Below are positions 2,598-63,005 of a stretch of 64,000 nucleotides of DNA, in pieces. A program made the translations under genes and the position numbers. The stretch comes from Rugalucina vietnamica (lineage: Eukaryota > Mollusca > Bivalvia > Lucinida > Lucinidae): positions 402,501 to 466,500 of the forward strand of contig OZ024878.1 of NCBI GenBank assembly GCA_964017185.1, given 5' to 3'. The notes beneath the pieces were generated by a model. That model was given only the letters and a program-made list of their open reading frames with translations, did not search any database and was not told where the DNA came from. Position 1 is the first letter of the stretch; each line of letters starts with the position of its first letter.

Positions 2598-2760
2598 TAG
2601 CTCACTTGAGCCGAAGGCTCATAGGTGAGTTTAAAAGATAAGCAGGGACCCTGCGTCCGTCCATGAACATTTTCAAACGACTTCTCTAAAGTCGTGAGGC
2701 TGATTGCTTTAATATTAATCATGTAGCATCTACAGGTAGGCAAACGAATAATTGTGCTCT
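2598..2760. repeat. Dispersed hairpin-ended repeat (GAGCC-GAA-GGCTC family)
   Basis: The segment starts with AGCTCACTTGAGCC, GAA, then GGCTCATAGGTGAG, an imperfect inverted repeat, followed by a CGTCCGTCC stretch and CATTTTCAAACGACTTCTC. The same hairpin and flank recur at 20597-20770 and, inverted, at 36360-36466. It is a dispersed non-autonomous repeat. Confidence 0.6.
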
Positions 2761-2775
2761 TGTTCTGATCGGATA

Positions 2776-3085
2776 AAAAAGGTACCAGTAGGCATTGATC
2801 AGGAAAACGTGCAATCAGAATGAAATCCCCATTCCAAAAACCGAGGTTGGAAAAATATTTTGTCAATTAGGTACTTATAAATATAGCACATATCGTAGGC
2901 CGAGTGAGCAGCTTTTTCCCAATAGACGGCCACTCAGTTACCCGAACTAAACTAAAACTATGAAAACGTACACAAGGTTCAAACAGCACACAAATTCGAC
3001 TCCAAAACATTAAAGAAATGGAACCACAACAGAAGTATCGTCTTGGAACGATCAGTAACATAAAATTACTGGGGGGCTCAGTAAT
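2776..3085 (-). mobile_element. Old Naiad 3'-terminal fragment
   Basis: This diverged minus-strand copy of the Naiad 3' end has the recognisable blocks CCGAGGTTGG, GAGCAGCTTTTTCCCAATAG, GGCCACTCAGTTACC and GATCAGTAACATAAAATTACT. It is much more diverged than the 12-16 kb copies, so it belongs to an older wave. Confidence 0.8.
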
Positions 3086-3660
3086 ATACGATTACTGGAA
3101 AATCTGCAAGAATTTTGTCAAAGGTTGTTGAATCCTTCCAAGATAGGCAACGCGTTTTGTTTATTAGAAATTTAAAATGGCATTGTTAATGTTTTAAATC
3201 GTTAGACAGGATATATAACCTAATAGGTCTCCTATTTACCTCACGACGTCAACTGTACTCTGGTTTCTTTGACAGCAAATACCCTAATTTATTTATTGGA
3301 ATTGATGACTACGCTTCAAGCAGTGCACATTAGTTTTCGTTTCATTTGTCACGCAAGTGCCTAGCCGGGCTTTACCATCAAGCCACATAAAATAGTTTGC
3401 TTACGGCAGCCATTTCATTTATTTACTTCTTTGTTCTTTCATTAAGTGCAACAGAGTTAGCGTGTTCTTTAAGTTTTGGTCTTTGACTAGAATGAGATGG
3501 GCATTTTGTATTGTTGTTTCATTATTTCATGTAAGATGAAGAAGAAAGTTCAGACGATTCGTATAAAGACGTAATCGAAAACCTAAAGAGCGTTTTGCTC
3601 TACAAATTAGTGCATTAAACTAATGGCTTAATATTTTATTCGTATGTTGAAACTTCCTAC
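3086..3660. other. Intergenic or intronic DNA with no recognised feature
   Basis: No coding, RNA or repeat signal was recognised apart from AT-rich sequence. Confidence 0.4.
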
Positions 3661-3664
3661 GATC

Positions 3665-4033
3665 CTGTCTTACTGCTATCAAATATTATGTCATAAGATA
3701 CTGTGAGACGGTGTATGAAACGTCAAAGAAAAACTGATTTTGGTCAATAAAAAAATTCTGGCGCTCAGAAAACTGAGGTGTAGAGGGTTCCGTGCCGACG
3801 AGCTTGTCCACATACGATTTTTCTACACTGTATACCACATTGCCACATAATCTGATTAAAGAAAACTTCTCGATTTGATAGAGTGGACCTTCAAAAACAT
3901 TTAATAAACTATGGTTCAATTTATTTGGCATGTAATGACAGAAAAGCTTTTTTCACTTCCTCTGACCAAAGTCGATATACACTTTTTGGTCATATGCATG
4001 CCAGAATGTATGCGATGCCTTATCCTATCTCCT
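3665..4033 (+). pseudogene. Decayed Naiad reverse-transcriptase fragment
   Basis: Nucleotide similarity to the RT core of the intact copies runs from the LTAIKS block through [15 protein letters not shown] and [18 protein letters not shown] to LSYLL, with frameshifts and stops. It ends about 18 bp before the acceptor of cyclase exon 1, so the insertion reaches almost to the splice site. Confidence 0.8.
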
Positions 4034-4051
4034 GGTTTCCTATGTTTTCAG

Positions 4052-4129
4052 GGTACACAGGTTTATATCCAGAAGCCGAAAATTAAGAGTTTGTCAGTTG
4101 ATAGAAAACTTCTGCTCGAACTGAAACAG
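4052..4129 (+). CDS. Guanylate cyclase exon 1 seen here (kinase-homology N-lobe)
   Basis: TTTTCAG precedes the exon and GTGGGT follows it. It has 26 codons, phase 0 at both ends, and includes the [12 protein letters not shown] helix typical of the N-lobe just before the 'H.NL' segment. Decayed Naiad RT sequence ends 18 bp upstream. Confidence 0.8.
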
Positions 4130-7100
4130 GTGGGTAGGATTTATAACATAGTGGTCATTCCTTCCAGGTCCAACAAAATACGAGTACATATGTACATCGT
4201 ATGATATTACATGGATTGATGCTCGTGTTAGGTTGGGAACATGAACTGTTAATTGTATTATATCTAACTCTTAAAACACCACGAGGACCGAACAGCGAAC
4301 TAAATGTTGTGAACCACTGCAGAAGAAGAAGGTGAGTTAAGGCGCCTGTAAAATCGGTTTAAGCCCATCCCCCGTATTTTTTTTATTACTGATCGTTCCG
4401 ATCGTTTTTTTATTTCAATTTGTTTTATGTTTTGGATATTGCGTTGATGAGGTTTTAATATCCGACATCACAATAAAAAGGTACACGCAGGCAATGATCA
4501 AGAAAAGGTGCAAACAGAAAGAAATTCCCACTCAGAAAACCAAGGTTGGAAAAAACTAAATTGACATTTAGGTACTTATACATAGAAAACATATCGTAAG
4601 CCGAGTGAGAAGCTATTCCCCATTAGACGGCCACTCAGTTACCGGAACTTACAAAAGGTACATAAAGTTCAAATAGCACACAATTCGACTGCAAAACATA
4701 AGACAAATGGAACCACAACAGACGTATCGCCTTGGAACTATCAGTGATATAAAAATACTGGGGGCTTAAATCAGATTTACTGGGCCCTTAACTCACCCTC
4801 ATCTTCTGCAGTGGTTCAAAGCACTTATGTATCATCCATTCTTTCAATCCATTTAAAATCTAATTAAGAGTATTTGATGTCGTTTCTGTCGTGCCCTTGA
4901 AGCTACCTTATTATACTGTTACAGATGCGTGACGTGACAAACCCTAACCTAACAAGACTGATAGGAATATGTCCAGAGCCAACTATATCTGTATTATGTC
5001 ATACTGTTACAACCCTAACCTAACAATGTCCCGAGCGTAATTGTATGTGTAGTGTCTCATATTGTTACAGATGCGTGACGTGACAAGCCCAAACCTAACA
5101 AGACTGATAGGGATATGTCCAGAGCCAAACTGTATTTGTATTATCTCAGAATACTGTTCAAGGGGAAGTCTTCAGGTAAGCAGATACTTCAGTATGACAA
5201 GATACAAGTAGGCAAAGATCTGGAAAAGGCGCAATCAGAAAAAGATTCCCACTCCAAAAACCGAGGTGGCTAGATTTATTTTGACTAGGAAAAATTCAAA
5301 TCTATAACAATTTTAAAACATAAGCTCCAAGTTACATTTGAACCGCCGCTATTACAAGTTTGAGTGTTTCGATCAATTGTATTACTACGACTAAATATCT
5401 CAATTTCCCTTGATTCGCAACCAAGAGACAAAGAGATGATGGGAAAAATGCATAGTTTTTCTGCTTCTATTTTGCATTTACTCATGACAAGGGGATAGAT
5501 GGCTTACCTGTTACTTGTTTTCAGCTTGAGAGTAAATTATAGAAGATCTGTCACGATGAGTAAAGCAGTGTCTTATAAGTAACGATTATAACAGTTCCGA
5601 TGATGCTAAACCGTCATGTGACCGTATGCGTACAGCACTATACCGTACAGAACAATAAATGGTAGAACGGCTACAGCAACGGCATTGGAGAGTCGGGGTC
5701 TAATTACCCAATATATTATTTAATGGTCGCTTAATGTTGATTTCAAACATTTTTTATCAACCCTTTTTTCAGGATATATTGCAGAATGAGTCAATCCAGC
5801 TTGACTGGGACTTCAGAATTTCTCTAATAACAGATATAGTCCAGGTAAGTACAAACACAGATACACAATGTCTTTTTTATTCCATTTGAGGTGCTGGTCC
5901 GAAATTGAGCAACTCAGTATATAAATAGATAGTTACATGCTCACTCATGAAATGCATAGCAAATTTGTCGCGAAGCTGGCATGACAAAAAGGTACAAGTA
6001 GGCAAAGATCAGGAAAAGGCGCAATCAGAAAAAGATTCCCACTCCAAAAACCGAGGTGGGAAAAAACCAAACTAACAATCAGGTACTTATACCATGAAAC
6101 ACACCGCAAGCCGAATGAGCAGCTATTTTCCCAATAGGTGGCCACTCAGTTACCTTAACTTAACTAAAAATATGAAAACATACATAAGGCGCCAACAGCA
6201 CAAAAAATGTTATACACCAAGACATAAAACAAAAAGAACCACCACAGAAGTATCGACTTGGAACGATCAGTAACACAAAGTTACTGGCGGGCTTAAACCG
6301 GTTTTACATGGCCATAACCTCACCCTAAGCTTCTGCAGTGGTTCATAACATTTAGTTAGTTATTTGGTCCTCGTGGTGAATCTCTAACTAGTCAATGAAT
6401 CATCAAGAACAAACAAATAAATCATGATAAACATCCTGATGAATCAAAAACCAGGACTCACAGACTGAGTAAGCTGCCCGACGATGGAGATCCCTGGGCG
6501 CCGAATAACCTACTAACTCCGGAGCAAAAGAAAAACACCAGTTGGACCCCGGTGGGCCAAGCAACAGACAAGAAGCTCCAGCCCCAACCAACTAAAATGA
6601 ATAGCTTTATGTCGGGGCCATCATAGAGTCTGACGCCCGACCCACCGGCGTGCAATTAAAGAAGGCAGCATAGTTATCAACCATGATTTGGTTAAAAACT
6701 AAGCATGCAGACTGTCGCATAACATTCAAGTTATAACCTATACGTTTGTAACGTGTTATGATTTTTCTGAACTGAAAAGAAAAATCATTAATTCCTTTAA
6801 GTTTCTTAAATTTGTAAACCAAGTCACCATAAAATTCAGGTTCCGAAAGGCCCTCACTTAAAAGCGTCTTTAACCCAACATTATATTTGGAAATCAATTC
6901 ATAGTGTCTACGATAAAATTTAGAAAATGTTTTTCGAAGTTTATGATACCGATAGCCCTGTTGGAGAAGTTTTGCCGTTAAACATTTATTTCGAGCGTTG
7001 AAGTCTGCAACATGATTGCAGACTCTAGCAAACCTAATAAGTTGCGAAATGTATACACCATAAGAAGCACGACGAGGAACGTCACCATCCAAAAAAGGAA

Positions 7101-10100
7101 AATTTACTATATCAAAATCAAAGTCATCGCGCTTATCATAAATTTTAGAAGAAACAAATCCATTTGCAACAGATAGATGTAGATCTAAAAAGGGGGCTTC
7201 AGTATCTGTGATATTGGCTTTGTTCAACTGAAGTTCAGGTGGATAAATTTGATTGACCATACCTTCAAAATAAGGGTTGTCAATGTTCAAAAGGTCATCG
7301 AGGTACCTAGATGTGGAATTAAAAGCCTCGATAACATCAGCTTGATTATCATGGTTAAGTGAATCCATGAAATCTCTTTCGTAGCAGTATAAAAATAAAT
7401 CAGCTACGAGAGGTGCGCAATTTGTACCCATCGGAATTCCAACAATTTGTCTGTACAACTTGGTCCCAAATCTAATATAAATATTATCAAGGAGATAGGA
7501 TAAGGCATCGCATACATTCTGACATGACCAAAGTGTATACCGACTTTGGTCAGAGGAAGTGAAAAAAGCCTTTCTGTCATTACATGCCAAATAAAGTGAA
7601 CCATAGTTTTTTAATGCCCTTTTGAAGGTCCACTCTATCAAATCCAGAAGTTTTTCTTTTATTAGATTATGTGGTAATGTTGTATACAGAGTAGAAAAAT
7701 CATATGTGGACAAGCTTGTCGCACGGAACCCTCTACACTTCAATTTACTGAGCACCTCACCAGAATTTTTAATTGACCAAAACCAATTTTTATTTGAAGT
7801 TTCATACACTGTCTCACAGTATCTTATAACATGAGATTTGATAGCAGTAAGACAGGAAGTTAATAATTTAGAAAGTTCAGTGGTAGTACAAGAGCTAGAA
7901 TTTGCAATAAATCTAGCTTTGTATGGTCTTTTGTGAAGCTTAGGTAACCAATACATCGTAGGAAGTTTGTCTTGGCCTTCATTGACACAAACAGAAAACT
8001 TAACAGGTAAATCGTTTAAGTGGGCATTAACTACAGACACCTCATCAGTATCTGTCTCCAGATAAGCCATGGTACCATCAAGCTCCTGTTTTAAGGTGTT
8101 AACGTAGTGAAGCCTACAAACGACAACAACAAGTTTGTTAGTGTATGTTTTCTCTTGTACAAAAGACTGCTGTGATTTCAAAGGTTTAATCCAACACGTA
8201 TTACGGAATCGTTTGGAATCGGTTAAAGGAATGGATTCGGAACCGCATAAGACGCCGTATGTATACGTAAAATACCATCATAAATTCATTCCTGGTACAA
8301 GAGAATGCATATCGGGTTTGTTACGCAAAATATTCGTATTCAAAGTTGGGAAACCTTCGTTTTTTCCTGCATCTGAGTGAATCGCCATCTTTATCGGGTA
8401 TGGTTACCGGTTTATCGATAATTACACGGTGAACGCGGTAACCAGTATAAAGCTGTGACGTCACTCACTCACTTTCTCTTTTTAAGCCGCTCATTTCAAT
8501 TGCAAGACGTTCAAATATTCTCGCGATAATTTCGTTATTTTATTTTGTATTTGTGGATATTTTCTGCGTTAAACTTGATAGAAGTGTTTATGTGATAATA
8601 CCGGAGAATAATAATTACCGAAGATGCCTCAGTGCCAGGCAATTAACTGTTAAAACAAGCCACAGAAAGGAGGTGAAAGTTTTTTCCAGATACCTGTCGT
8701 CGGCTTTTCGCTTTCCCAAAAGCGATAAAAAATCGTAGGTGTAGACATTTTCACTATTTCTTATTAATAATCCAGTATAAATGGAATGGAATTACTGTTA
8801 CATGTATCTACGAACAGTAGTTTTTATTCCGAATTTTGGCATTTCACATACAATTCGTCAAAGAATCGCGCACAAAAGAAAAAGAATAGGAATTCGCAAA
8901 TTTTTCATCCATTTTATTCCAAAAAACGAAATCGGTACACACTCCAGGGGTAATCTCACTTTTTTTTCTTTTTTTTTTCTTTTTTTTTTTTAAATAATTT
9001 GATTAATTTTCTTCAGTTATTTCTATTTTAGTTAAATTTATAATCGGAGATGAACCGATGCGCATGCGTTTCTAATTTGTTTGCCACCAATCCAGGAAAG
9101 ATTTTCATTCATGCAGATAATTATTTTTAGCATGTGACACGGTAAACACGCCTTAAACGGTCAGCTGACCTGTCACCAATGACTGCAATTAAAGTTGTTT
9201 ACATAAAGACAATCGCCATCAAAAGATGCGACCGCGCTTCATTAAATCGTTTGATCGCCATTATAAGTTGTTTACATAAAGACGCGCACCATCAAAAGAT
9301 GCGACCGCCATTCTTAATTCGTTTGATCACCAACATACGTACGAAAGATTATTGACTACCCAACTATCGTAACATAATTTTGATTGGATACATCATAAAG
9401 GTGCGAAAAACACTCGGATGGCTCACAGACAACAAAACATTGGTAAATATTGGGACGTATCGCGACAAAAACAACTTGCGCCCCGGGAATCACCACTTCG
9501 GAAAACCATGTGTCTGAGCCCAGATTTACTCGACCCGGGACGCCGGGTCCTGCGTCCGCGAGATCCCTGTGACAGATGACATTTTTTTTTCTAATTTTCT
9601 TTTTTTTTTCTCTTACCTTAATCTGCGAATTTTATCGATAAAATGAAGTGGAGTACGATCGCTTATCAATGGCTCTCAACCGAAAGTGAGTGAGTGACGT
9701 CACAGGTAAACAAATATGGCGACAACCTTCGCGATTCGAGACGCATTTTAGCGTAATTTTCAATCGATGATTGTATACTTATTATGGGGTAAATCGTTGG
9801 AATTTGATTTGTAACACGTACTGTAACATCTAAATGAATATGTACAGGGCCAAATATGCGTTTCCGAATCGATTCCTTTAAGTAATAAACCTTGTTAGCT
9901 ATAGATTATGAAAACAAGTTTTACTAGGACGTGCATCCATTATATTTGGTTACCAATTCCATGGTTTCTGAGACTGCTTGTACAGATGTTGTTGGAAATT
10001 CTGAGACACATATCTATTTTATTTTCTTTTTGATAGAGATTATTAGTTAACACCCATATCCATGCATCGATCCACACTCACATATACTTTAAACCATTAA

Positions 10101-39902: not shown

Positions 39903-40315
39903 AAGGAGGTGTGATCAGATGTTCGCAAAGGGTGAGCATCACCTGCCAGTTATAGTGCACCCGCCATGTTCATATGACGTAGTTACAGCAGGCTCTAGCA
40001 TAGCGAACTAGCTGAGAGACATATACTTCGTAAGCAGGTGTGAGTGAATATTGCTACTCATAGATGGAAAGTTAACCACTGGGAAATTAAAGCCATCCCT
40101 CTTGTCATAAAGCCTAGTAATAAGCTTTCCATTGTCAATATTGAGATAACAATCTAGATACTGGACTCGGTTGTGTCCTTAATATCAAGTTTACATGGAT
40201 AGATGACATCAATAAACTACGAATTTTGTTAATTATTCTGAGATTAAACATCATCTATGTATCTGTATGTGAAATTGAATTGTTGTGCAAAATGTTTACA
40301 GATGTTTACTATCTC
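39902..40315. other. Intergenic DNA, nothing recognised
   Basis: No element was recognised. Confidence 0.35.
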
Positions 40316-41189: not shown

Positions 41190-41229
41190 AAAAATTCAGA
41201 ACCTCCTATTTTCCAAAAAAAGTTTCCAA

Positions 41230-43269
41230 AATTCAGAACCTCCTATTATTTGTTACAAATATAACAAACCAATCAGAAATACTATTTTTAATTTCAATAA
41301 ACTTGTTTCTGATCTTGATATCCATGCTAATACTCCTAAGTCTTGAGATTGTAAAGATTCAAAATATGTTTATCAACCAGCTGGACATATAGTTACTGGA
41401 AATTTAAAGATAATTTCGGATTCTAGAATTCGCAAAATTGTTTCTAAAGGTCCGAAATATAGATTCCCTTCCTACATTAATTTCGACAAATGTAGAGAGG
41501 AGATTGCATCTGCATTAAATGATTTCGGTAATCGATGGTGTAAACGAGAGGGTGTTGAGGATAATGCTCTTAAAGAATGGAAAAGAAGTATCTTCACTAT
41601 CGTGGATAAACGTATTAAGTTTTATTCACAAAATACTAATCTTTTACCTCCTAAACCCAAATCGTCATTTAGGCATTTGAAGCAGGGTATCCAAGAATTT
41701 CATAGAAAGTATGTCTTGGTTCCGGCAGATAAAGCCGCAAACAATGTTGTTGTCGTTTGTAGACTTCACTACGTTAACACCTTAAAACAGGAGCTTGATG
41801 GTACCAGGACTTATCTGGAGACAGATACTGATCAGGTGTCTGTAGTAAATGCCCACTTAAACGATTTACCTGTTAAGTTTTCTGTTTGTGTCAATGAAGG
41901 CCAAGACAAACTTCCTACGATGTATTGGTTACCTAAGCTTCACAAAAGACCATACAAAGCTAGATTTATTGCAAATTCTAGCTCTTGTACTACCACTGAA
42001 CTTTCTAAATTATTAACTTCTTGTCTTACTGCTATCAAATCTCATGTTATAAGATACTGTGAGACAGTGTATGAAACTTCAAATAAAAATTGGTTTTGGT
42101 CAATAAAAAATTCTGGTGAGGTGCTCAGTAAATTGAAGTGTAGAGGGTTCCGTGCGACAAGCTTGTCCACATATGATTTTTCTACTCTGAATACAACATT
42201 ACCACATAATCTAATTAAAGAAAAACTTCTGGATTTGATAGAGTGGACCTTCAAAAGGGCATTAAAAAACTATGGTTCACTTTATTTGGCATGTAATGAC
42301 AGAAAGGCTTTTTTCACTTCCTCTGACCAAAGTCGGTATACCCTTTGGTCATGTCAGAATGTGTGCGACGCCTTATCCTATCTCCTTGATAATATTTATA
42401 TTAGATTTGGGACCAAGTTATACAGACAAATTGTTGGAATTCCGATGGGTACAAATTGCGCACCTCTCGTAGCTGATTTATTTTTATACTGCTACGAAAG
42501 AGATTTCATGGATTCTCTTAACCATGATAATCAAGCTGATGTTATCGAGGCTTTTAATTCCACATCTAGGTACCTCGATGACCTTTTGAACATTGACAAC
42601 CCTTATTTTGAAGGTATGGTCAATCAAATTTATCCATCTGAACTTCAGTTGAACAAAGCTAATATCTCAGATACCGAAGCCCCCTTTTTAGATCTACATC
42701 TTTCTGTTGCAAATGGATTTGTTTCTTCTAAAATTTATGATAAGCGCGATGACTTTGATTTTGATATAGTAAATTTTCCTTTTTTGGATGGTGACGTTCC
42801 TCGTCGTGCTTTTTATGGTGTATACATTTCGCAACTTATTAGGTTTGCTAGAGTCTGCAATCATGTTACAGACTTCAACGCTCGAAATAAATGTTTAACG
42901 GCAAAACTTCTCCAACAGGGCTATCGGTATCATAAACTTCGAAAAACCTTTTCTAAATTTTATAGTAGACACTATGAATTGATTTCCAAATATAATGTTG
43001 GGTTAAAGACACTTTTAAGTGAGGGCCTTTCGGAACCTGAATTTTATGGTGACTTGGTTTACAAATTAAAGAAATTTAAAGGAATAAATGATTTTTCTCT
43101 TCAGTTCGGAAAAATCATATCACGTTACAGACGTATAGGTTATAACTTGAATGTTATGCGACAGTCTGCATGCTTAGTTTTTAACCCAATCATGGTTGAT
43201 AACTATGCTGCCTTCTTTAATTGCACGCCGGTGGGTCGGGCGTCAGACTCTATGATGGCCCCGACTTAA
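41230..43269 (+). CDS. Naiad CxC linker and reverse transcriptase, with one in-frame TGA
   Basis: The frame is open from 41230 to the TAA at 43267-43269 except for TGA at 41344-41346, exactly the first Cys of the CxC motif (TPKS-TGA-DCKDS). RT blocks follow: [25 protein letters not shown], motif A (YDFSTLNTTLP, an L-N change from the usual LYTTLP), [16 protein letters not shown] and RYLDDLL. The apparent start at 41602 is a GTG inside the domain, not a real start. The endonuclease half is missing, so this copy alone cannot make the full protein. With selenocysteine read at the TGA, it has no disabling change in RT. Confidence 0.9.
41344..41346 (+). other. In-frame TGA at the CxC motif (candidate selenocysteine)
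   Basis: Same codon and context as 58785-58787 in the full-length copy. Confidence 0.8.
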
Positions 43270-43315
43270 AGCTATTCATTTTAGTTGGTTGGGGCCGGAG
43301 CTTCTTGTCTGTTGC
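43240..43315 (+). promoter_or_regulatory. SECIS-like stem-loop overlapping the RT stop codon
   Basis: Lower stem GCGTCAGAC (43240-43248) pairs GTCTGTTGC (43307-43315) with one mismatch. ATGA is at 43252-43255 and the opposing GA at 43298-43299. Upper stem GGCCCCGAC pairs GTTGGGGCC (nine pairs, one wobble). The apical loop starts TTAAA, whose TAA is the stop codon. Twelve nucleotides separate ATGA from the apical AA. A mini-stem AGCTA/TAGTT may make it type II. Confidence 0.72.
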
Positions 43316-43949
43316 TTGGCCCACCGGGGTCCAACTGGTGTTTTTCTTTTGCTCCGGAGTTAGTAGGTTATTCGGCGCCCAGGGATCTCCATCGTCGGGC
43401 AGCTTACTCAATCTGTGAGTCCTGGTTTTTGATTCATCGGGATGTTTATCATGATTTATTTGTTTGTTCTTGATGATTCATTGACTAGTTAGAGATTCAC
43501 CACGAGGACCGAAGAACTAACTAAATGTTGTGAACCACTGCAGAAGCTGAGGGTGAGGTTAGGTACCTGTAAAACCGGTTTAAGCCCGCCAGTAACTTTG
43601 TGTTACTGATCGTTCCAAGTCGATACTTCTGTAGTGGTTCTTTTTGTTTTATGTCTTGGTGTTTAAAATTTTTTGTGCTGTTGGCGCCTTATGTATGTTT
43701 TCATATTTTTAGTTAAGTTAAGGTAACTGAGTGGCCACCTATTGGGAAAATAGCTGCTCATTCGGCTTACGATATGTTTCATGGTATAAGTACCTGATTG
43801 TTAGTTTGGTTTTTTCCCACCTCGGTTTTTGGAGTGGGAATCTTTTTCTGATTGCGCCTTTTCCTGATCTTTGCCTACTTGTACCTTTTTAAGCACAGTC
43901 ACGAGTAGGAATGGAAAATCATATGGTCTTCAGTAGAACGTTTAGGTAT

Positions 43950-47735: not shown

Positions 47736-50603
47736 CAGTAGAGACCAATGTTTCCTTGATTTCATTGAATATAATAATATGGTGTCATTAAGCTCACTGG
47801 ATATACGAACGGGCCCCATCTCGACATTTGTATCATTTGACGGTAAATCGGAGAGTCATATAGACCACATACTTATGCCGTATGAAAAATCGGACCTCAT
47901 ATCAAGTTGTGATATTCCTGATGATTCCTCCTTGAATGTTTCAAGTCATAGACCTATTCTGTGTTCTTTCCAACTTCCGCATGTACTCTCATGTTTGAAC
48001 ACACAGATAACTGATGTTATAAACTGGTCCAAGGTAAGACAAGAAGATAAGTATTTATATACTGAATCCTTACAAACTAGTGCTGTTCTAAACGACGCCT
48101 TATCAGAGGAAATCAAAAGTGTTGCTGATATAGACAATATGTATAACCAACTTGTGAGCAGTTTAAATTATGCGGCGAAAACGCACAATCCAAGATCAAG
48201 GTTTAAGCCTCATCTTAAGCCTTACTGGAATAAGGATCTAACGGAAGCTCATAAATAATGACATATAATTTATGGATAATAAATGGCAAACCACGCGGTT
48301 TGATTCATATATCATACCGAGACTATAAACAAGTCAAAGCTGTTTTTCGAAAACAACATAGAAAGGTTGTGTCACAATACCTCAAAACTTTAGATGATCA
48401 GATAAATATTGCCGCTGAAATAGATGTTAAACGATTCTGGAAACTTATAAAGTCGCGAAGGTCTAAAACAGGACCTAGTGCCACGTCAGAAATCATTTTC
48501 AATGGGACAACATACAGGGACCCACAAGAAATAAACGAGCAGTGGCAAATCTACTTTTCTCAGCTATATACGCCTGACGAAAATGAAATATTCGATAATA
48601 ATGTGAAAGTTGAAATTGAAAATGAACTTCGTCAAATAGAATAAGACTGTGCTGGTATCTCTACTTCTTTAACAATCGACAGAGATTTAGTGGTTGGTGC
48701 AATTAAGAGCAGTAAACTAGGTCGTGCTTGTGGAGAGGATAGACTTTATTATGAAAGCATAAAATATGGAGGCACAATTGTGATAAATATTTTGTTAAAA
48801 CTGTTTACCGCAATGCTTAATTTTTCCCATAGATTGATGAAAAGAGGTATCATAATTACTTTGTATAAAGGCGGGAATAAAAAGAAGAATGATCCGAATA
48901 GCTATAGAGCAATTACCTTATCCTCGGTGGTACTTAAAGTATACGAGAAAGTTCTTCTGACTTTATGTAAAGAGGACGGAAAAGCTAATTTGAATAAGCT
49001 ACAAACTGGTTTCCAGCCTAATATGGGTTGCATGATGACTGCGTTTATGGTAAGAGAATCGATGCACTTTACGGCGGAATTGGGTTCAAAACTATACATG
49101 TGTTTTCTTGATATTCGGCAAGCTCTCGACCGCGTGTGGCAGGACTTGTTAATGGTTAAACTCTATCGCAGAGGCTTCAATACGTCGCTTATTAAAGCTA
49201 TTATTGACCTTTATGAAGATATGTTTAGCTGTGTTAGGTCGCAGGGTATTGAGTCAGATTGGTTCCCCGTGAAACAGGGCACGAGACAGGGTGGTTGTTT
49301 GAGCCCATACCTGTATCTCGTCTTTGGGAACGACTTACTGGATGAACTTAACAAGTGCGCGTACTGTTTTATGATGTACGGGATACAGTGTGGATTTCCT
49401 GCCTATGCTGACGATCTGTTGCTCCTGTCTTTATTAAAGCGAGGCATGGACTGCTTGATGGATATTTGTTTCGCAAATTCTATAGTTGAACGATGTTTAT
49501 ACCATTATCTTAAGACAAATGTTGTGGTCGCGAATGAATCGAAACCAAAGTATCTGGAATCCACACGTACATGGTCATTAGGTGGAAATATTATCGAAGA
49601 AACAGAGTCCTACACTCATTTAGGCGTCATATGTGACAAGTATTTGAACTTGAATAGTGCTATTGACGATAGTTGCAAGAAAATCAGAAGTACATTTTTC
49701 AGCTTGATAAATAGTGGCGTCCACGAAGATGGATTCCTACCTCTTACCTCAAAACATTTGTATCAAACAATAGTATTGCCCAAGGCTTTGTATGGGTGTG
49801 AACTCTGGAATAATCTGAAACAAGAGCATATCGATAAATTGGAAACAGCGCATCGATTCTGTTTAAAGTATATGCAATCCCTCCCAAAGGACACAAGAAC
49901 GATAATCGCATTGAGCTGCGTCGGTGCCGTTTCTATTGAAACAGAAATTGACAGACGTAAGTTGATATTTTTCGGTCAGCTGTGCAACCTATCACCAGAT
50001 TTGAGAGTGAAGGAAATCTTTGTATATCGCCTTATCCATTACATGTAATGACCCTTGTTCGATCACTGGTTTCTTCCCTGATATTCACAGAGTTCTTGGT
50101 AAATATGGATTAGACACTTACATGTACTCATTCACAACTACTGGAGAATTTCCTTCGAAACAGTCGTGGAAACGCCTAGTAGTTCGTAATATTCTGAATG
50201 CTGAAACTATTAATTTCCAGTGTGCAATAGTTAATAAACAGTCATTGAACGGATTTGATATTATCCATGGGGAAGTTAGCCTATGTCATATATGGGAATT
50301 CAGTAGAGAAAATCGGGAACATACAAACCGAAGTATAACAGTCATGGTTCTACTGAGTAGAATGTTCGGTTTTAGTTATGATAAGATGTGCATATTATGC
50401 GGAGTGCAAACAGATTCCATCGCAGTTCATCTTATCATGTACTGTCGAAATAACTGCTCAGTCCGGTCAAGACTGTGGAACACTCTTTACATGTATCTAG
50501 GACGATTTAATTATGAACGCTTTATTGAACTTACGCCTAGAGAACAGTGTATCGAGATGCTCGCTTCTTTGCCGTCATTTGCTCTTCCTGACTCGACACG
50601 TAA
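47736..50603 (+). pseudogene. Non-LTR retrotransposon (LINE) ORF2, broken
   Basis: The remains of one ORF2 with the endonuclease C-terminus first (about 47740-47990: SHIDHILMPYE, then NVSSHRPILCSF, the APE-type SDH box as SSH). RT follows: KGGNKKKNDPNSYRAITLSS, FLDIRQALDRVW, GTRQGGCLSPYLY and the catalytic AYADD at 49401-49415. A C-terminal C-x2-C...H...C finger is at about 50389-50443. It is disabled by frameshifts near 48250 and 50045 and a TAA at 48642-48644. The 5' endonuclease part is missing and both ends abut minus-strand Naiad sequence. APE endonuclease plus this RT suggests a CR1/L2/Jockey-type LINE, not resolved further. Confidence 0.9.
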
Positions 50604-53275: not shown

Positions 53276-53578
53276 ATACATGTAGGCAAAGATCAGGAAA
53301 AGGCGCAATCAGAAAAAGATTCCCACTCCAAAAACCGAGGTGGGAAAAAAACCAAACTAACAATCAGGTACTTATACCATGAAACATATCGTAAGCCGAA
53401 TGAGCAGCTATTTTCCCAATAGGTGGCCACTCAGTTACCTTAACTTAATTAAAAATATGAAAACATACATAAGACGTCAACAGCACAAAACATCAAGACA
53501 TAAAACAAAAAGAACCACCACAGAAGTATCGACTTGGAACGATCAGTAACACAAAGTTACTGGCGGGCTTAAACCGGT
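53276..53578 (-). mobile_element. Naiad 3'-region piece, minus strand
   Basis: From TACATGTAGGCAAAGATC to GCTTAAACCGGT, where it flips directly into a plus-strand RT. Confidence 0.88.
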
Positions 53579-55195
53579 CATTTAGGCATTTGAAGCAGGG
53601 TATCCAAGAATTTCACAGAAAATTTCACAGAAAATATGTCTTGGTTCCGGCAGACAAAGCCGCAAACAATGTTGTTGTTGTTTGTAGGCTTCACTTCGTT
53701 AACACCTTAAAAACAGGAGCTGGAGGGTACCAGGGCTTATCTGGAGACAGATACTGATGAGGTGTCTGTAGTAAATGCCCACTTAAACGATTTACCTGTT
53801 AAGTTTTCTGTTTGTGTCAATGAAGGCCAAGACAAACTTCCTACGATGTATTGGTTACCTAAGCTTCACAAAAGACCATACAAAGCAAGATTTATTGCAA
53901 ATTCTAGCTCTTGTACTACTACTGAACTTTCTAAATTATTAACTTCCTGTCTTACTGCTATCAAATCTCATGTTATAAGATACTGTGAGACAGTGTATGA
54001 AACTTCAAATAAAAATTGGTTTTGGTCAATAAAAAATTCTGGTGATGTGCTCAATAAATTGAAGTGTAGAGGGTTCCGTGCGACGAGCTTGTCCACATAT
54101 GATTTATCTACTCTGTATACAACTTTACCACATAATCTAATTAAAGAAAAACTTCTGGATTTGATAGAGTGGACCTTCAAAAGGGCATTAAAAAACTATG
54201 GTTCACTTTATTTGGCATGTAATGACAGAAAGGCATTTTTCACATCCTCTGACCAAAGTCGGTATACACTTTGGTCATGTCAGAATGTGTGCGACGCCTT
54301 ATCCTATCTCCTGGATAATATTTATATTAGATTTGGGACCAAGTTATACAGACAAATTGTTGGAATTCCGATGGGTACAAATTGCGCACCTCTCGTAGCT
54401 GATTTATTTTCATACTGCTACGAAAGAGATTTCATGGATTCTCTTAACCATGATAATCAAGCTGATGTTATCGAGGCTTTTAATTCCACTTCTAGGTACG
54501 TCGATGACCTTTTGAGCATTGACAACCCTTATTTTGACGGTATGGTCAATCAAATTTATCCATCTGAACTACAGTTGAACAAAGCCAATATCTCGGATAC
54601 CGAAGCCCCCTTTTTAGATCTACATCTTTCTGTTGCAAATGGATTTGTTTCTTCTAAAATTTATGATAAGCGCGATGACTTTGATTTTGATATAGTAAAT
54701 TTTCCGTTTTTGGATGGTGACGTTCCTCGTCGTGCTTCTTATGGTGTATACATTTCGCAACTTATTAGGTTTGCTAGAGTCGGCAATCATGTTACAGACT
54801 TCAACGCTCGAAATAAATGTTTAACGGCCAAACTTCTCCAACAGGGCTATCGGTATCATAAACTTCGAAAAACCTTTTCTAAATTTTATTGCAGACACTA
54901 TGAATTGATTTCCAAATATAATGTTGGGTTAAAGACGCTTTAAAGTGAGGGTCTTTCTGAACCAGAATTTTATGGTGACTTGGTTTACAAATTTAAGAAA
55001 CCTATAGGAAGTAATGATTTTTCTTTTCAGTTTAGAAAAATCATAACACGTTACAGACGTATAGGTTATAACTTGAATGTTATGCGACAGTCTGCATGCT
55101 TAGTTTTTAACCCAATCATGGTTGATAACTATGCTGCCTACTTTAATTGCACGCCGGTGGGTCGGGCGTCAGACTCTATGATGGCCCCGACTTAA
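53579..55195 (+). pseudogene. Naiad reverse transcriptase, disabled
   Basis: Near-identical to the RT of the full copy but with a frameshift near 53710 (extra A, AAAACAGG) and a nonsense change at about 54941-54943 (CTT TTA to CTT TAA). The catalytic box is RYVDDLL instead of RYLDDLL. No endonuclease half. Confidence 0.9.
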
Positions 55196-55815
55196 AGCTA
55201 TTCATTTTAGTTGGTTGGGGCCGGAGCTTCTTGTCTGTTGCTTGGCCCACCGCGATCCAACTGATGTTTTTCTTTAGCTCCGGAGCTAGTAAGTTATTTG
55301 GCGCCCAGGGATCTCCATCGTCGGGCAGCTTACTGAATCTGTGAGTCCTGGTTTTTGATTCATCAGGATGTTTATCATGATTTATTTGTTTGTTCTTGAT
55401 GATTCATTTACTAGTTAGAGATTCACCACGAGGACCGAAGAACTAACTAAATGTTATGAACCACTGCAGAAGCTGAGGGTGAAGTTACGGCCGTGTAAAA
55501 TCGATTTAAACCCGCCAGTAACTTTGTGTTACTGATCGTTCCAAGTCGATACTTCTGTGGTGGTTCTTTTTGCTTTATGTCTTAGTGTTTAAAATATTTT
55601 TGTGCTGTTGGCGCCTTATGTATGTTTGCATATTTTTAGTTTAGGTAACTGAGTGGCCACCTATTGGGAAAATAGCTGCTCATTCGGCTTACGAAATGTT
55701 TTCATGGTATAAGTACCTGATTGTTAGTTTGGTTTTTTTCCCACCTTGGTTTTTGGAGTGGGAGTCTTTTTCTGATTGCGCCTTTTCCTAATCTTTGCCA
55801 ACGTGTACTTTTTAC
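53579..55815 (+). mobile_element. Naiad copy, RT to 3' end, plus strand
   Basis: Starts at the [12 protein letters not shown] part of RT with a 13-bp local duplication (AGAAAATTTCACA). SECIS-like stem-loop at 55166-55241 and complete 3' region ending about 55812. Confidence 0.9.
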
Positions 55816-56244: not shown

Positions 56245-56815
56245 AAGGTACAAGTAGGCAAAGATCAGGAAAAGGCGCAATCAGAAAAAGATTCCCACTC
56301 CAAAAACCGAGGTGGGAAAAAACCAAACTAACAATCAGGTACTTATACCATGAAACAATCGTAAGCCGAATGGGCAGCTATTTTCCCAATAGGTGGCCAC
56401 TCAGTTACCTTAACTTAACTAAAAATATGAAAACATACATAAGGCGCCAACAGCACAAAAAAATTTTAAACACCAAGACATAAAACAAAAAGAACCACCA
56501 CAGAAGTATCGACTTGGAACGATCAGTAACACAAAGTTACTGGCGGGCTTAAACCGGTTTTACATGGCCATAACCTCACCCTCAGCTTCTGCAGTGGTTC
56601 AAAACATTTAGTTAGTTATTCGGTCCTCGTGGTGAATCTCTAACTAGTCAATGAATCATCAAGAACAAACAAATAAATCATGATAAACATCCTGATGAAT
56701 CAAAAACCAGGACTCACAGACTGAGTAAGCTACCCGACGATGGAGATCCCTGGGCGCCGAATAACCTACTAACTCCGGAGCAAAAGAAAAACACCAGTTG
56801 GACCCCGTGGGCCAA

Positions 56816-56891
56816 GCAACAGACAAGAAGCTCCGGCCCCAACCAACTAAAACGAATAGCTTTATGTCGGGGCCATCATAGAGTCTGACGC
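56816..56891 (-). promoter_or_regulatory. SECIS-like stem-loop of the full-length Naiad
   Basis: Same fold as 43240-43315: lower stem GCGTCAGAC/GTCTGTTGC, ATGA at 56879-56876 (minus strand), upper stem GGCCCCGAC/GTTGGGGCC, apical ATAAA containing the stop TAA (56864-56862), opposing GA at 56833-56832. The ATGA and GA sides face each other as in the SECIS quartet. Confidence 0.72.
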
Positions 56892-59800
56892 CCGACCCAC
56901 CGGCGTGCAATTAAAGAAGGCAGCATAGTTATCAACCATGATTGGGTTAAAAACTAAGCATGCAGACTGTCGCATGACATTCAAGTTATAACCTATACGT
57001 TTGTAACGTGTTATGATTTTTCTGAACTGAAAAGAAAAATCATTAATTCCTTTAAGTTTCTTAAATTTGTAAACCAAGTCACCATAAAATTCAGGTTCCG
57101 AAAGGCCCTCACTTAAAAGCGTCTTTAACCCAACATTATATTTGGAAATCAATTCATAGTGTCTACGATAAAATTTAGAAAATGTTTTTCGAAGTTTATG
57201 ATACCGATAGCCCTGTTGGAGAAGTTTTACCGTTAAACATTTATTTCGAGTGTTGAAGTCTGTAACATGATTGCAGACTCTAGCAAACCTAATAAGTTGC
57301 GAAATGTATACACCATAAGAAGCACAACGAGGAACGTCACCATCCAAAAAAGGAAAATTTACTATATCAAAATCAAAGTCATCGCGCTTATCATAAATTT
57401 TAGAAGAAACAAATCCATTTGCAACAGAAAGATGTAGATCTAAAAAGGGGGCTTCAGTATCTGAGATATTGGCTTTGTTCAACTGAAGTTCAGGTGGATA
57501 AATTTGATTGACCATACCTTCAAAATAAGGGTTGTCAATGTTCAATAGGTCATCGAGGTACCTAGATGTGGAATTAAAAGCCTCGATAACATCAGCTTGA
57601 TTATCATGGTTAAGAGAATCCATGAAATCTCTTTCGTAGCAGTATAAAAATAAATCAGCTACGAGAGGTGCGCAATTTGTACCCATCGGAATTCCAACAA
57701 TTTGTCTGTATAACTTGGTCCCAAATCTAATATAAATATTATCAAGGAGATAGGATAAGGCGTCGCATACATTCTGACATGACCAAAGTGTATACCGACT
57801 TTGGTCAGAGGAAGTGAAAAAAGCCTTTCTGGCATTACATGCCAAATAAAGTGAACCATAGTTTTTTGATGCCCTTTTGAAGGTCCACTCTATCAAATCC
57901 AGAAGTTTTTCTTTAATTAGATTATGTGGTAATGTTGTATACAGAGTAGAAAAATCATATGTGGACAAGCTTGTCGCACGGAACCCTCTACACTTCAATT
58001 TACTGAGCACTTCACCAGAATTTTTAATTGACCAAAACCAATTTTTATTTGAAGTTTCATACACTGTCTCACAGTATCTTATAACATGAGATTTGATAGC
58101 AGTAAGACAGGAAGTTAATAATTTAGAAAGTTCAGTGGTAGTACAAGAGCTAGAATTTGCAATAAATCTAGCTTTGTATGGTCTTTTGTGAAGCTTAGGT
58201 AACCAATACATCGTAGGAAGTTTGTCTTGGCCTTCATTGACACAAACAGAAAACTTAACAGGTAAATCGTTTAAGTGGGCATTAACTACAGACACCTCAT
58301 CAGTATCTGTCTCCAGATAAGCCCTGGTACCATCAAGCTCCTGTTTTAAGGTGTTAACGTAGTGAAGCCTACAAACGACAACAACATTGTTTGCGGCTTT
58401 ATCTGCCGGAATCAAGACATACTTTCTATGAAATTCTTGGATACCCTGCTTCAAATGCCTAAATGACGATTTGGGTTTAGGAGGTAAAAGATTAGTATTT
58501 TGTGAATAAAACTTAATACGTTTATCCACGATAGTGAAGATACTTCTTTTCCATTCTTTAAGAGCATTATCCTCAACACCCTCTCGTTTACACCATCGAT
58601 TACCGAAATCATTTAATGCAGATGAAATCTCCTCTCTACATTTGTCGAAATTAATGTAGGAAGGGAATCTATATTTCGGACCTTTAGAAACAATTTTGCG
58701 AATTCTAGAATCCGAAATTATTTTTAAATTTCCAGTAACAATATGTCCAGCGGGTTGATAAACATATTTTGAATCTTTACAATCTCAAGACTTAGGAGTA
58801 TTAGCATGGATATCAAGATCAGAAACAAGTTTATTGAAATTAAAAATTGTATTTCTGATTGGTTTGTTATATTTGTAACAAATAATAGGAGGTTCTGAAT
58901 TTTGGAAGTAGGTAGGTATAGACTGTATCACTGATTTATCCTGGAATATGCTTGGTAAATCAATAAAGTCAATTCCTTTATTGATGAAAGGAATTTTAAT
59001 AAAACTTCTAATGTGATTGGATTCGGAATCGATAAATGGACGAAGAGCATGCTGAGTATAACATCTTGTTAACAGTGCAGCGTCATACATTTGATGATTT
59101 CTATCGTAAAATCTATTAGCCTCTGTGTCCAAGGAACGTAATGCAGCAATAGGTAGAGAACTAAGATACGACAGCATTGGATGTCGACCGTGAATCCTTA
59201 GTTTAACAGCTAAATCATTAAGAGAAATGTTCAATTTCAATGCAGCACACCGTTTACGTTTGTCATTACCCCTTTTCCGTATACCATGAGATCTAGATTT
59301 ACGTTTACGAGAGTCCGAAAGTGTAAGTACATCAAAATCGGGCATTTTGGAAATATTGCCTTCATGGTAAATGTTGTCGTTAAATCCCAGTGGAAAGGGT
59401 GTTTGCAGTAATTTTATCCATTTAAGTTCAGTTTCAAATCGTTTAATGTTTTTGAATCTAACTGAAGAATTTTCATCATATGAGATTTTCTCCACTGGTT
59501 GAACTTTAACATCATTGGGAGAATGACCAGTGCGCTTAAAATGCTGGTACAGAAAGGTATCATTATTTTTGGGTTTTCTGATTCTACGATAGTGCTCACC
59601 AAATCGTTTTTGCAAAGTTCGACAAGTTTGTCCAACATATTGCATCCTACAATTGTTTGTATTTCAAGTAAGAACATATACAAGATCCATTGATTTTCAG
59701 TCTAAATCAGAATCATTAACCACTGAAAATGTCCTACCATTCACAGATGAAGTGATAGTAGTCTTAGAGCATAAATGATTGCAACAGTTGCACTTCTTGG

Positions 59801-60095
59801 CATTGCACTTAGAAATACTAGGGTACATTCCAGGTCTCTTGAACGGATTAATATATTTACGTAAAATTGGTGATTTGAGTGGAGATAACCTAATCTGAAG
59901 ATTATTACGAAACATATTAGAATTAGAAGCTCCGTGTAGATTAACAGTAGATGCCGAAAATAAATTAAGAGGTGTCACCCTTACAGTAGGTAATAAATTT
60001 TGAAAATTGTTAGTTGAATGAGGAATCCGTACAGTAGACGCGGCATGCAACCTAAGGGGAGTTAATGTAATTCCTAATCTTTTTGTGATAGTCAT
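56862..60095 (-). CDS. Naiad GIY-YIG endonuclease-reverse transcriptase, candidate selenoprotein
   Basis: A 1077-residue retrotransposon protein that would nick DNA and prime reverse transcription. Start chosen at the first ATG of the frame (60095); a stop lies upstream at about 60168. Order: basic N-terminus; Cys cluster at 97-109 (KCNAKKCNCCNHLC); GIY-YIG endonuclease from about 133 (VYV at 139-141, YVGQT at 153-157, then LQKRFGEHYRR); linker; CxC motif at 437-439; RT with motif A Asp714 ([11 protein letters not shown]), [16 protein letters not shown], and YLDD at 846-849; stop TAA at 56864-56862. TGA codons at residues 133, 144 and 437 fall where relatives have Cys (the 'C.s.n.VY.ltC' pair and the CxC). 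Endonuclease before RT is the Naiad/Chlamys order, the reverse of Penelope and Neptune. No other stop or frameshift breaks it. Confidence 0.9.
58785..58787 (-). other. In-frame TGA, residue 437 (candidate selenocysteine in the CxC motif)
   Basis: Context HANTPKS-TGA-DCKDSKYVY; the linker motif becomes U-D-C. Also present at 41344-41346 in a separate copy. Confidence 0.85.
59664..59666 (-). other. In-frame TGA, residue 144 (candidate selenocysteine in the endonuclease)
   Basis: Context DLVYVLT-TGA-NTNNCRMQYVGQT. Penelope-like GIY-YIG domains have Cys here ('VY.ltC..C...YVG'). Confidence 0.82.
59697..59699 (-). other. In-frame TGA, residue 133 (candidate selenocysteine in the endonuclease)
   Basis: Context VVNDSDLD-TGA-KSMDLVYVL. 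The family has Cys four or five residues before the GIY-like strand. Confidence 0.82.
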
Positions 60096-60302
60096 AGTTG
60101 GGAGTATTGTGTTGATACTGCCAAAAGGAGCGCGACACTCATACCGGTTATAGAATAAATAATGCACTTAATCGTAATGCAAAATCTTTCGAATGAAAGA
60201 AAAAGGTATAACCGAAACCCACACCTCAGGTCCATGTCTAATACAAGTCCATGGATAGAAACGTAAGAATCGCTTATACAACGAGATATAGCTTTCATGA
60301 AT

Positions 60303-60960
60303 GGCCATCAAAGAGTCTGACGCCCGACCCACCGGCGTGCAATTAAAGAAGCCAGCATAGTTATCAACCGTGATTGGGTTTAAAACTAAGCATGAAGACT
60401 GTCGCATTACATTTAAGTTATATCCTATGCGTCTGTAACGCGTAATGATTTTTCTGAATTGAAAAGAAAAGTCATTCCTTGCAATAAGTTTCTTAAATTT
60501 GTAAACCAAGTCACCATTAAATTCTGGTTCCGAAAGGCCCTCACGTAAAAGGGTCTTTAGCCTTACAATAAATTTGGAAATCAGTTCATAGTGTCTGTGA
60601 TAAAATTTAGAAAAGGTTTTTCGAAGTTTATGATACCTATAGCCCTGCTGAAGAAGTTTGGCTGTTAAACATTTATTTCGTGCATTGAAATCCGCAACAT
60701 GATTGCAGACTCTAGCAAACCTAATAAGTTTTGAAATGTATACGCCATAAGAAGCACGGCGAGGAACGTCAACATCCAAAAACAGAAAGTTTTCTATATC
60801 AAAATCAAAGTCATCACGTTTATCATAAAGTTTAGAAGAAACGAATCCATTTGCAATAGAAAGATGTAAGTCTAAAAATGGGGCTTCGGTATCTGTGTTG
60901 TTTGCTTTATTCAACTGTAGTTCAGGGGGATAATTTTGTTTGACCATGCCTTCGAAATAA
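60303..60960 (-). mobile_element. Older Naiad RT fragment in tandem with the full copy
   Basis: Open RT thumb-side sequence ([20 protein letters not shown] to [14 protein letters not shown]), clearly more diverged than the other copies. Its 3' end is cut inside the SECIS-like loop (GACTCTTTGATGGCC), where it joins the 5' UTR of the full copy. The left part of its long frame (60302-60168) is 5' UTR of the next element, not RT. Confidence 0.88.
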
Positions 60961-60962
60961 GG

Positions 60963-61205: not shown

Positions 61206-62020
61206 ATAAAATATAAAGGTTTGATCCTTTGGAAGCAGTAAAAACATTCAAAGGGAGATAGTATGGACTATATTGCGCAATTTCGGGTAATGAACCCTCG
61301 TCAGTAGCCCTTTTTAAACCGGCAACGAACGCCAGGCTATAATTGTTCTGCAATTTCGAGAATTTACACGAGGAGTCTAAATCAAAGACATATTCCTAAA
61401 TTGGGTCAAATAATTAAAAAATGCTTAGAAGTATGTTTCTAAACGTGAGTGTTTTGAACACTCTGAATATCTTTACTGATCTCAAAGGACCGAAATAAAA
61501 ATAAAATCTGCACTATGGATGATGTACGGGGAGACTTTTTACGGCCGCCACACGGCACAACACCAGCTGCAGTAATAGCAAATAAAATATAAAGGTTTGA
61601 TCCTTTGGAAGCAGTAAAAACATTCAAAGGGAGATAGTATGGACTATATTGCGCAATTTCGGGTAATGAACCCTCGTCAGTAGCCCTTTTTAAACCGGCA
61701 ACGAACGCCAGACTATAATTGTTCTGCAATTTCGAGAATTTACACGAGGAGTCTAAATCAAAGACATATTCCTAAATTGGGTCAAATAATTAAAAAATGC
61801 TTAGAAGTATGTTTCTAAACGTGAGTGTTTTGAACACTCTGAATATCTTTACGGATCTCAAAGGACCGAAATAAAAATAAAATCTGCACTATGGATGATG
61901 TACGGGGAGACTTTTTACGGCCGCCACACGGCACAACACCAGCTGCAGTAATAGCAAATAAAATATAAAGGTTTGATCCTTTGGAAGCAGTAAAAACATT
62001 CAAAGGGAGATGATCTTTGA
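61206..62020 (-). repeat. 376-bp tandem repeat, about 2.1 units
   Basis: ATAAAATATAAAGGTTTGAT occurs at 61206, 61582 and 61958, exactly 376 bp apart. The units are nearly identical, implying a recent duplication. Strand is arbitrary. Confidence 0.93.
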
Positions 62021-62225
62021 TTGGTCTAACAAGTGTTGATTAACCGAAATTAAACAAAAACTTATTATATATTAGTTAATTTTTGTTATCTGATTGGCTC
62101 TGTACTGTGCCTTTAGGATTAGACTAATTCACATAGCTTACACACGTCTTATTGTTTAAGACCTGTAATAACGTCCCAGGTAATCCTGGGAAAGATGGTG
62201 CAAATTACACAGTAATTTTTGTGAA

Positions 62226-62266
62226 AATAATGATTGCGCCTTTTTCTGATCGTTGCCTACTTGTAT
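62226..62266 (+). mobile_element. Naiad 3'-terminal scrap
   Basis: TGATTGCGCCTTTTTCTGAT then CGTTGCCTACTTGTA: the last 40 bp of the element. Confidence 0.75.
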
Positions 62267-62568
62267 AATTTTTCCTATTACTGTATTAAGTCACATTTGA
62301 GTAATGAACTAGTTTTAAATTGCAGTGCATTACGGTTTGTTTAATTTCTAATCTTTGTCATTTGTCAATAATCCATGGAATAAGATAACGGTTATGCTTG
62401 TTTAAGTTTATAATTATCTGACGATGCAGAAAAATAAGACAAATTGACCTCATTATTAGCATGAGGATTGAATCATGCAATAGTGTGTGCATTTGCACAA
62501 TCAATCAAACATTTATCCGCATGATCATCATATCATTTCGAAAGATACCAAACCACCTTATAATTAGA

Positions 62569-63005
62569 GATGAAATATAAAGTTAGATCCTTTGGAAGCA
62601 GTAAAAATATATACAAGTAAGATAGTGGGCCATATAGCGCTATTTCGGGTAATGAACCCTCCTCAGTGACCCTTAACAAACCGGCAACGAAAGCCAGATA
62701 ATGACACTGCAATTTCAAGACTTTAAACCAGGACAGTCTAAATAAAAGACAAATAGAATTCCAAAATAGGACCAAAGGAGTAAAGGATAATTAGAAAATG
62801 TTTCTAATTATATTATGGTGTTTTTGAGTACTCAGATATTCTTACTGATCTCAAAGGACCAAAAGAAAAATATAATCGGCACTATGGATGATGTACGGGG
62901 AGACTTTTTACGGCCGCCACACGGCACAACACCAGCTGCAGTAATAGGAAATGAAATATAAAGTTAGATCCTTTGGAAGCAGTAAAATATATACAAGTTA
63001 GATAG
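62569..63005 (-). repeat. Diverged copy of the 376-bp repeat family
   Basis: AAATATAAAGTTAGATCCTT at 62573 and 62953, with the CTATGGATGATGTACGGGGA block almost unchanged (62883) but the left half clearly diverged. Confidence 0.85.

Follow-up and report, generated by a model that had tools for sequence, protein, structure and literature searches.

A stretch of 64,000 nucleotides from the lucinid clam Rugalucina vietnamica (contig OZ024878.1, positions 402,501 to 466,500; hereafter the window) carries, on its minus strand, a long reading frame of a retrotransposon that is interrupted by three TGA codons. The locus raises the question of whether these codons are ordinary stops in a decaying copy or are read as selenocysteine (Sec). 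The features on which the analysis is based are collected in Table 1.

Three in-frame TGA codons in a long open reading frame

The minus-strand frame from 60095 to 56862 was found to be open over 1077 codons except for codons 133 (window position 59699), 144 (59666) and 437 (58787), TGA each time, which bears out what the original prediction had stated. Its description of the copy as apparently intact has to be qualified: the copy begins at approximately 60288, abutting there a 3' fragment (60288-60962) that belongs to an older subfamily, whereas array copies lie about 4.23 kb apart, and a single base is missing from the margin of the stem that surrounds the SECIS element described below.

There are 477 single-base routes from a sense codon to a stop in the ORF, and 29 of them begin at Cys codons. 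Under random one-step decay, the probability that three of three stops fall at Cys sites is therefore low (P ~2e-4), as had been argued on the ground that decay would not pick Cys sites alone; this value presupposes Cys at all three sites, and genome sequence showed Cys for 437 alone.

Table 1. Location of the features identified in the window.
Feature	Position	Strand	Remarks
ORF of the putative Naiad-type element, 1077 codons + TAA, three in-frame TGA	56862..60095	-	frame reading
TGA codon 133, predicted Sec	59697..59699	-	Cys-rich segment, 5 residues ahead of Pfam GIY-YIG match
TGA codon 144, predicted Sec	59664..59666	-	within GIY-YIG match (VYVLT-U)
TGA codon 437, predicted Sec	58785..58787	-	CxC linker residue 1 (S-U-D-C)
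TAA stop codon, inside SECIS	56862..56864	-	AA + next A = AAA motif
GIY-YIG endonuclease core, residues 138-192	59520..59684	-	PF01541, 27.1 bits, cut-off 22.6
YLDD, presumed reverse transcriptase catalytic motif, residues 846-849	57549..57560	-	motif recognition
SECIS element, RF00031	56820..56887	-	Rfam SECIS_1, 37.4 bits (gathering 35); first 26 nt = ORF end including stop
Longer stem enclosing SECIS, limits approximate	56807..56900	-	predicted fold
Older-subfamily 3' fragment, ~88% identical	60288..60962	-	directly upstream of window copy
5'-truncated family copy, tail-to-tail inverted	53577..55250	+	own SECIS at 55170-55237
Truncated family copy	41224..43332	+	SECIS at 43244-43311
Truncated family copy	6544..8137	-	SECIS at 6565-6632

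Protein domains and element class

The GIY-YIG endonuclease core was recognized above the Pfam cut-off when residues 81-288 were scanned alone, with Cys placed at the TGAs; GIY-YIG was absent from the matches reported for the whole-protein Pfam scan. Of the two N-terminal TGAs, which had been assigned to this domain, codon 144 lies inside the Pfam match and codon 133 lies 5 residues ahead of it. Structure prediction for residues 81-288 from the single sequence gave a mean pLDDT of 32.7, too low for use.

Downstream, where a Naiad-type element would have its telomerase-like reverse transcriptase, the ORF contains YLDD and, at residue 801, GIPMG, which we take to be reverse transcriptase motifs. 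For this part of the protein no Pfam family scored above its cut-off, and the PDB sequence search with the element protein returned one match, which was irrelevant (E 0.1). Nothing usable was obtained when relatives were sought in viral contigs, genome contigs and plasmids.

A short CxC linker between the endonuclease and the reverse transcriptase is diagnostic of Naiad-type Penelope-like elements, and elements of this type are not known to carry a hammerhead ribozyme. In the window ORF, U437-D-C439 matches by spacing the C-S-C of a relative (locus L075), within a 140-residue alignment, and neither the window nor any of 40 loci scanned gave a hammerhead match that reached the Rfam gathering score. 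The family also forms head-to-tail arrays, in which neighbouring copies are mostly 4223-4230 bases apart, with wider spacings too and with partial upstream copies; head-to-tail tandem units (pseudo-LTRs) are among the features described for Penelope-like elements (PMC11167929). The N-terminal GIY-YIG, the CxC linker, the tandem units and the lack of a hammerhead support the assignment of the ORF to a Naiad-type Penelope-like element.

Other elements were noticed in the course of this work. A second reverse transcriptase ORF (RVT_1, 83 bits) occupies 48645-50048 on the plus strand, between two open frames that have no Pfam match. At 39976-40285 (minus strand) there is a fragment of a second family, for which 211 first-look candidates were found in the genome and 40 were scored; the Cys-type CxC of L075 is located 0.8 kb from a match of this fragment on contig C1, so that the second family is probably a Cys-type Naiad. 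Elsewhere in the genome, a GIY-YIG match of the Penelope-like type lies within a 2741-codon open frame (G000:C9:58718891-58719175). Positions 61206-62963 of the window contain direct repeats with a 376-base spacing, two 300-nt copies being 99% identical and more copies being partial and diverged.

Copies of the family in the genome

The genome (1.09 Gb, 47 contigs) was searched with residues ~90-500 of the element protein. This yielded 3615 first-look candidates, the best 101 of which, including the window copy, were scored; across three family searches the first-look candidates numbered from 1692 to 6359, with 40-101 of them scored. Among the best 101 of the 3615 matches, 99 contained three TGAs, one contained four TGAs and one contained three TGAs and one TAG, the scored matches being the best ones and hence biased towards young copies. 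The stop-to-stop frame was 1101 codons long, with TGA read through, in 41 of these 101.

Twenty young copies were fetched from among these matches, mostly chosen for their long frame; five have shorter or damaged frames. TGA was present at 133, 144 and 437 in every one of them, and the stops at other positions amounted, for the 20 copies pooled, to one TGA and one TAG. In those of the best 101 matches that were not fetched, the TGAs presumably occupy the same three sites. Because the copies are related by descent, neither 20 of 20 nor 101 of 101 represents independent observations, and it is the selection test below that bears the weight.

The older subfamily is ~10% diverged from the young family. 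From 22 loci fetched, four reach the TGA sites and 18 do not; one of the four, L043, aligns as three pieces. TGA was found at 133 in three of the four (AGA in the other), at 144 in three (TGG in the other) and at 437 in all, that is, in 10 of the 12 readable cells when the three sites are pooled. At other positions, the 22 loci contain 14 TAA, 8 TGA and 5 TAG, in agreement with the expectation that random decay gives TAA and TAG as well. At the three sites themselves, TAA, TAG and frameshifts do not predominate in the copies examined, which represent the highest-scoring members of the family. The three TGAs are thus a property common to the spreading, young, recently active family.

Some loci carrying a SECIS showed 48-73% protein identity and were considered as candidates for divergent families. 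They were rejected as such: the DNA around their SECIS belongs to the family of the window copy, and frameshifts account for the low protein identity.

Within the window, the segments 53577-55250 (plus strand) and 56800-60288 (minus strand) form a large inverted repeat with a SECIS on each side. Its arms measure 1251 nt within the searched stretch and are 96% complementary.

Residues at the three sites in relatives

A linker bait was used to search the genome, and 150 places were scored and listed. Among these, 142 had one TGA, one had two TGAs, one had a TGA and a TAG, and six had none. In the relative L075, with 36% identity across 140 residues, C-S-C takes the place of the U-D-C of the window family; the BLAST alignment has a one-residue gap opposite 437, and the Cys was assigned to this site from its distance to the second Cys in the CxC. 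Four other TGA-free linker places have TTA, GGG, TCA and TGG at 437, as expected of dead copies. Codons for residues other than Cys or Sec (AGA, TGG, TTA, GGG, TCA) do occur at the three sites, but in scattered single copies alone.

A GIY-YIG bait gave 150 places scored and listed, 147 of them stop-free, two with one TAA and one with one TGA. When the window GIY-YIG domain was aligned to this bait, both UGA codons fell opposite Cys of the bait motif, which makes it likely that relatives have Cys at 133 and 144. The proposal that all three TGAs lie at Cys sites is therefore supported for 437 by L075, through spacing, and for 133 and 144 by the Cys of the bait motif.

Selection on the protein beyond the TGA codons

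Near-fixed differences between the two subfamilies were defined by at least 80% agreement in the 20 young and at least 70% in the 22 older loci, and were compared with changes private to single loci. In codons 438-1077, beyond the last TGA, the near-fixed differences comprised 84 synonymous and 23 nonsynonymous changes and no stop (dN/dS 0.074). In contrast, the private changes of single older loci numbered 106 (synonymous), 260 (nonsynonymous) and 19 (stop), with an N/S per site of 0.66; for single young loci the figures were 35, 43 and 1, respectively (N/S per site 0.33). The difference between near-fixed and private changes was significant by Fisher's test against older (P 4e-20) and young (P 3e-6) loci.

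Most of this signal came from codons 701-1077, with 60 synonymous, 11 nonsynonymous and no stop changes near-fixed (dN/dS 0.049; P 1e-17 for older, 3e-6 for young). For codons 438-700 the corresponding numbers were 24, 12 and 0 (P 2e-4 versus older singletons, 0.17 versus young). For codons 145-436 they were 40, 24 and 1 (P 4e-4 versus older singletons, 0.15 versus young), the young singletons of this segment being few and mostly synonymous (15, 3 and 1); ahead of codon 437, the older subfamily was represented in the test by 2-4 copies. For codons 1-132, the comparison of near-fixed with private changes was without significance. The low dN/dS after the UGAs indicates that the protein past all three of them was made, and selected, while the UGAs remained.

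This result bears on the possibility that the UGAs are mainly regulatory stops, in which case products of 132, 143 or 436 residues would dominate and the full-length protein would be a rare by-product. Two UGAs located 11 codons apart near the N terminus fit such an arrangement, as does the competition between UGA read-out and termination that is reported for known selenoproteins (PMC9599142). The frame after codon 437 is, however, under strong selection, so that the full-length protein matters, and we consider this explanation unlikely. Truncation at the UGAs as a means of regulating dose could be compatible with a selenoprotein that is also made at full length.

One further copy of the window family was observed with TGT (Cys) at site 437. 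Loci L076, which carries this codon, and L081 (G000:C1:77688250-77689650 and C1:77690520-77690860) are taken as one copy that has no GIY-YIG part and has lost ~207 codons in frame; its frame of 2022 nt (674 codons) reaches the SECIS stop. The copy was picked for lacking the TGA. Its private changes over 301 codons comprise 13 synonymous, 10 nonsynonymous and no stop (P 0.009 versus older-subfamily singletons), and it is possibly a Cys-reverted derivative or a domesticated gene.

A SECIS element across the stop codon

The reading of the UGAs as Sec, already part of the original prediction, is supported by a feature that was absent from it and that we regard as deciding: a SECIS element at the 3' end of the ORF. 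The element extends across the 3' boundary of the ORF and takes the UAA stop into its AAA motif (56863-56861, the AA of UAA and the following base); the AUGA motif (56879-56876) lies in two adjacent Met codons close to the C terminus. The predicted fold, with z -3.6 over 141 nt and z -3.3 over 68 nt, is stable and extends into the longer stem.

Nine SECIS_1 matches were found in the window, that of the window copy among them. A SECIS scoring above gathering was present at the 3' end of 19 of the 20 young loci (L024 was below) and of 5 of the 20 older loci scanned, the other 15 being below; the scores are modest. In the genome, at least 16 matches had an E value of 0.001 or better (150 scored of 42,234 candidates), and all of them belong to this family: 15 of the 16 end a recognizable stretch of element protein and the sixteenth, L058, carries the family's SECIS sequence.

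A 137-nt stretch surrounding the SECIS contained no near-fixed subfamily differences (permutation P 0.0095), nor did the SECIS itself (P 0.014), and near-fixed synonymous changes affected 0 of 26 sites in the last 39 codons, compared with 60 of the 213 sites in codons 701-1038 (P 5e-4), these P values being generous since the gap was spotted after viewing the data. The placement of the SECIS across the stop codon is unusual and may be a new detail.

Decoding of UGA by the host

Two genes for tRNA-Sec with anticodon TCA were identified in the genome, scoring 79 and 71 bits and so exceeding the cut-off. The search for glutathione peroxidase (GPx) gave 18 matches. Ten span the active-site half of the profile, each with exactly one TGA; of the remaining eight, seven are stop-free and one has a TAG. 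Judging from the tRNA-Sec(TCA) genes and the UGA-containing GPx exons, the host itself is predicted to read UGA as Sec. No SepSecS candidate was obtained in the genome search, which is a weak test for an exon-split gene in a large genome. Weaker tRNA-Sec-like matches were also listed, 22 in number at 40-46 bits, several of them clustered on contigs C2 and C3.

The sequence alone does not name the residue inserted, and the UGAs might be read by another tRNA through stop suppression, or UGA might be a sense codon genome-wide, with no Sec in either case. Against this stand the downstream SECIS with its nucleotide constraint, the UGA in host GPx exons and the relative that has Cys, not Trp or Arg, at site 437; we hold such a decoding to be very improbable. 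The explanation that the three TGAs are ordinary premature stops of a decaying copy can practically be set aside: many copies are indeed truncated or damaged, 18 of the 22 older loci falling short of the TGA sites, and old copies do acquire stops, but the same three TGAs recur in all 20 fetched young copies, at least three are present in each of the best 101 matches, dN/dS between the subfamilies after the TGAs is 0.07, and random stops elsewhere include TAA and TAG.

A predicted selenoprotein of a Penelope-like retrotransposon

We conclude that the ORF very probably encodes a selenoprotein and constitutes the only gene of a Naiad-type Penelope-like retrotransposon that was active recently. 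The shared TGAs, the purifying selection after them, the SECIS, the Sec-decoding host, the Cys at 437 in L075 and the GIY-YIG domain all agree with the initial claim of Sec in a Naiad-type element.

Translation would most likely start at the AUG at 60095, or at an in-frame AUG no more than 24 codons ahead of it. The host's tRNA-Sec, together with its Sec elongation factor and SECIS-binding protein, would decode UGA 133, 144 and 437 as selenocysteine. In the resulting product of 1077 residues, Sec would occupy two Cys positions of the GIY-YIG region and residue 1 of the CxC linker, where it probably assumes a metal-binding or redox role of Cys. Termination would take place at the UAA within the SECIS. 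Since each UGA competes with termination, the full-length protein, and hence new insertions, would depend on selenium supply.

A more tentative proposal, which we put forward as possible rather than probable, is that the stop codon has become fused with the recoding signal: the UAA contributes to the AAA motif, the terminal 26 nt of the ORF belong to the SECIS, and near-fixed synonymous changes are absent from the final 39 codons. If copying proceeds from the 3' end of the RNA, even badly 5'-truncated copies would keep the SECIS, and activity would be gated by selenium supply.

The selection test after the UGAs provides sequence-level evidence that an abundant retrotransposon needs UGA as a sense codon, very probably for selenocysteine. 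A question that follows is whether selenium supply limits transposition. The SECIS across the stop codon raises another: how ribosomes terminating inside the SECIS are reconciled with the binding of its obligatory factor. The dispersed SECIS copies, if transcribed, could tap host SECIS-binding proteins, and they may mislead selenoprotein prediction in this genome.

Comparison with known systems

In a search of literature largely outside the subscription journals, none of the titles and abstract openings listed dealt with a selenoprotein retrotransposon. Naiads reportedly have an N-terminal GIY-YIG and a CxC linker, and those of spiders and clams are said to be independently evolved selenoproteins with several Sec residues. 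The window element resembles the Naiads reported by Craig et al. 2021 in its N-terminal GIY-YIG, CxC linker and single ORF, and also in its head-to-tail arrays and its several in-frame UGAs at Cys sites. Selenium-using jumping genes of such type are thus already described, and the window copy is mainly a well-supported new example of them.

In fowlpox GPX4, the SECIS is located inside the ORF, and in-frame SECIS elements are functional in mammalian cells, according to the account in PMC6769590. As far as that account goes, the two systems are alike in that the SECIS is not limited to the 3' UTR; the SECIS of the window element differs in that it straddles the stop, contains the UAA and belongs to a retrotransposon, in which it would act on three UGAs. 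Selenoprotein P, for which 10 UGAs and two SECIS elements in the 3' UTR are described (PMC5133445), is similar to the window element in that several UGAs are read as Sec from one mRNA. From that description, it is a host gene with both SECIS elements in its 3' UTR, unlike the retrotransposon of the window.
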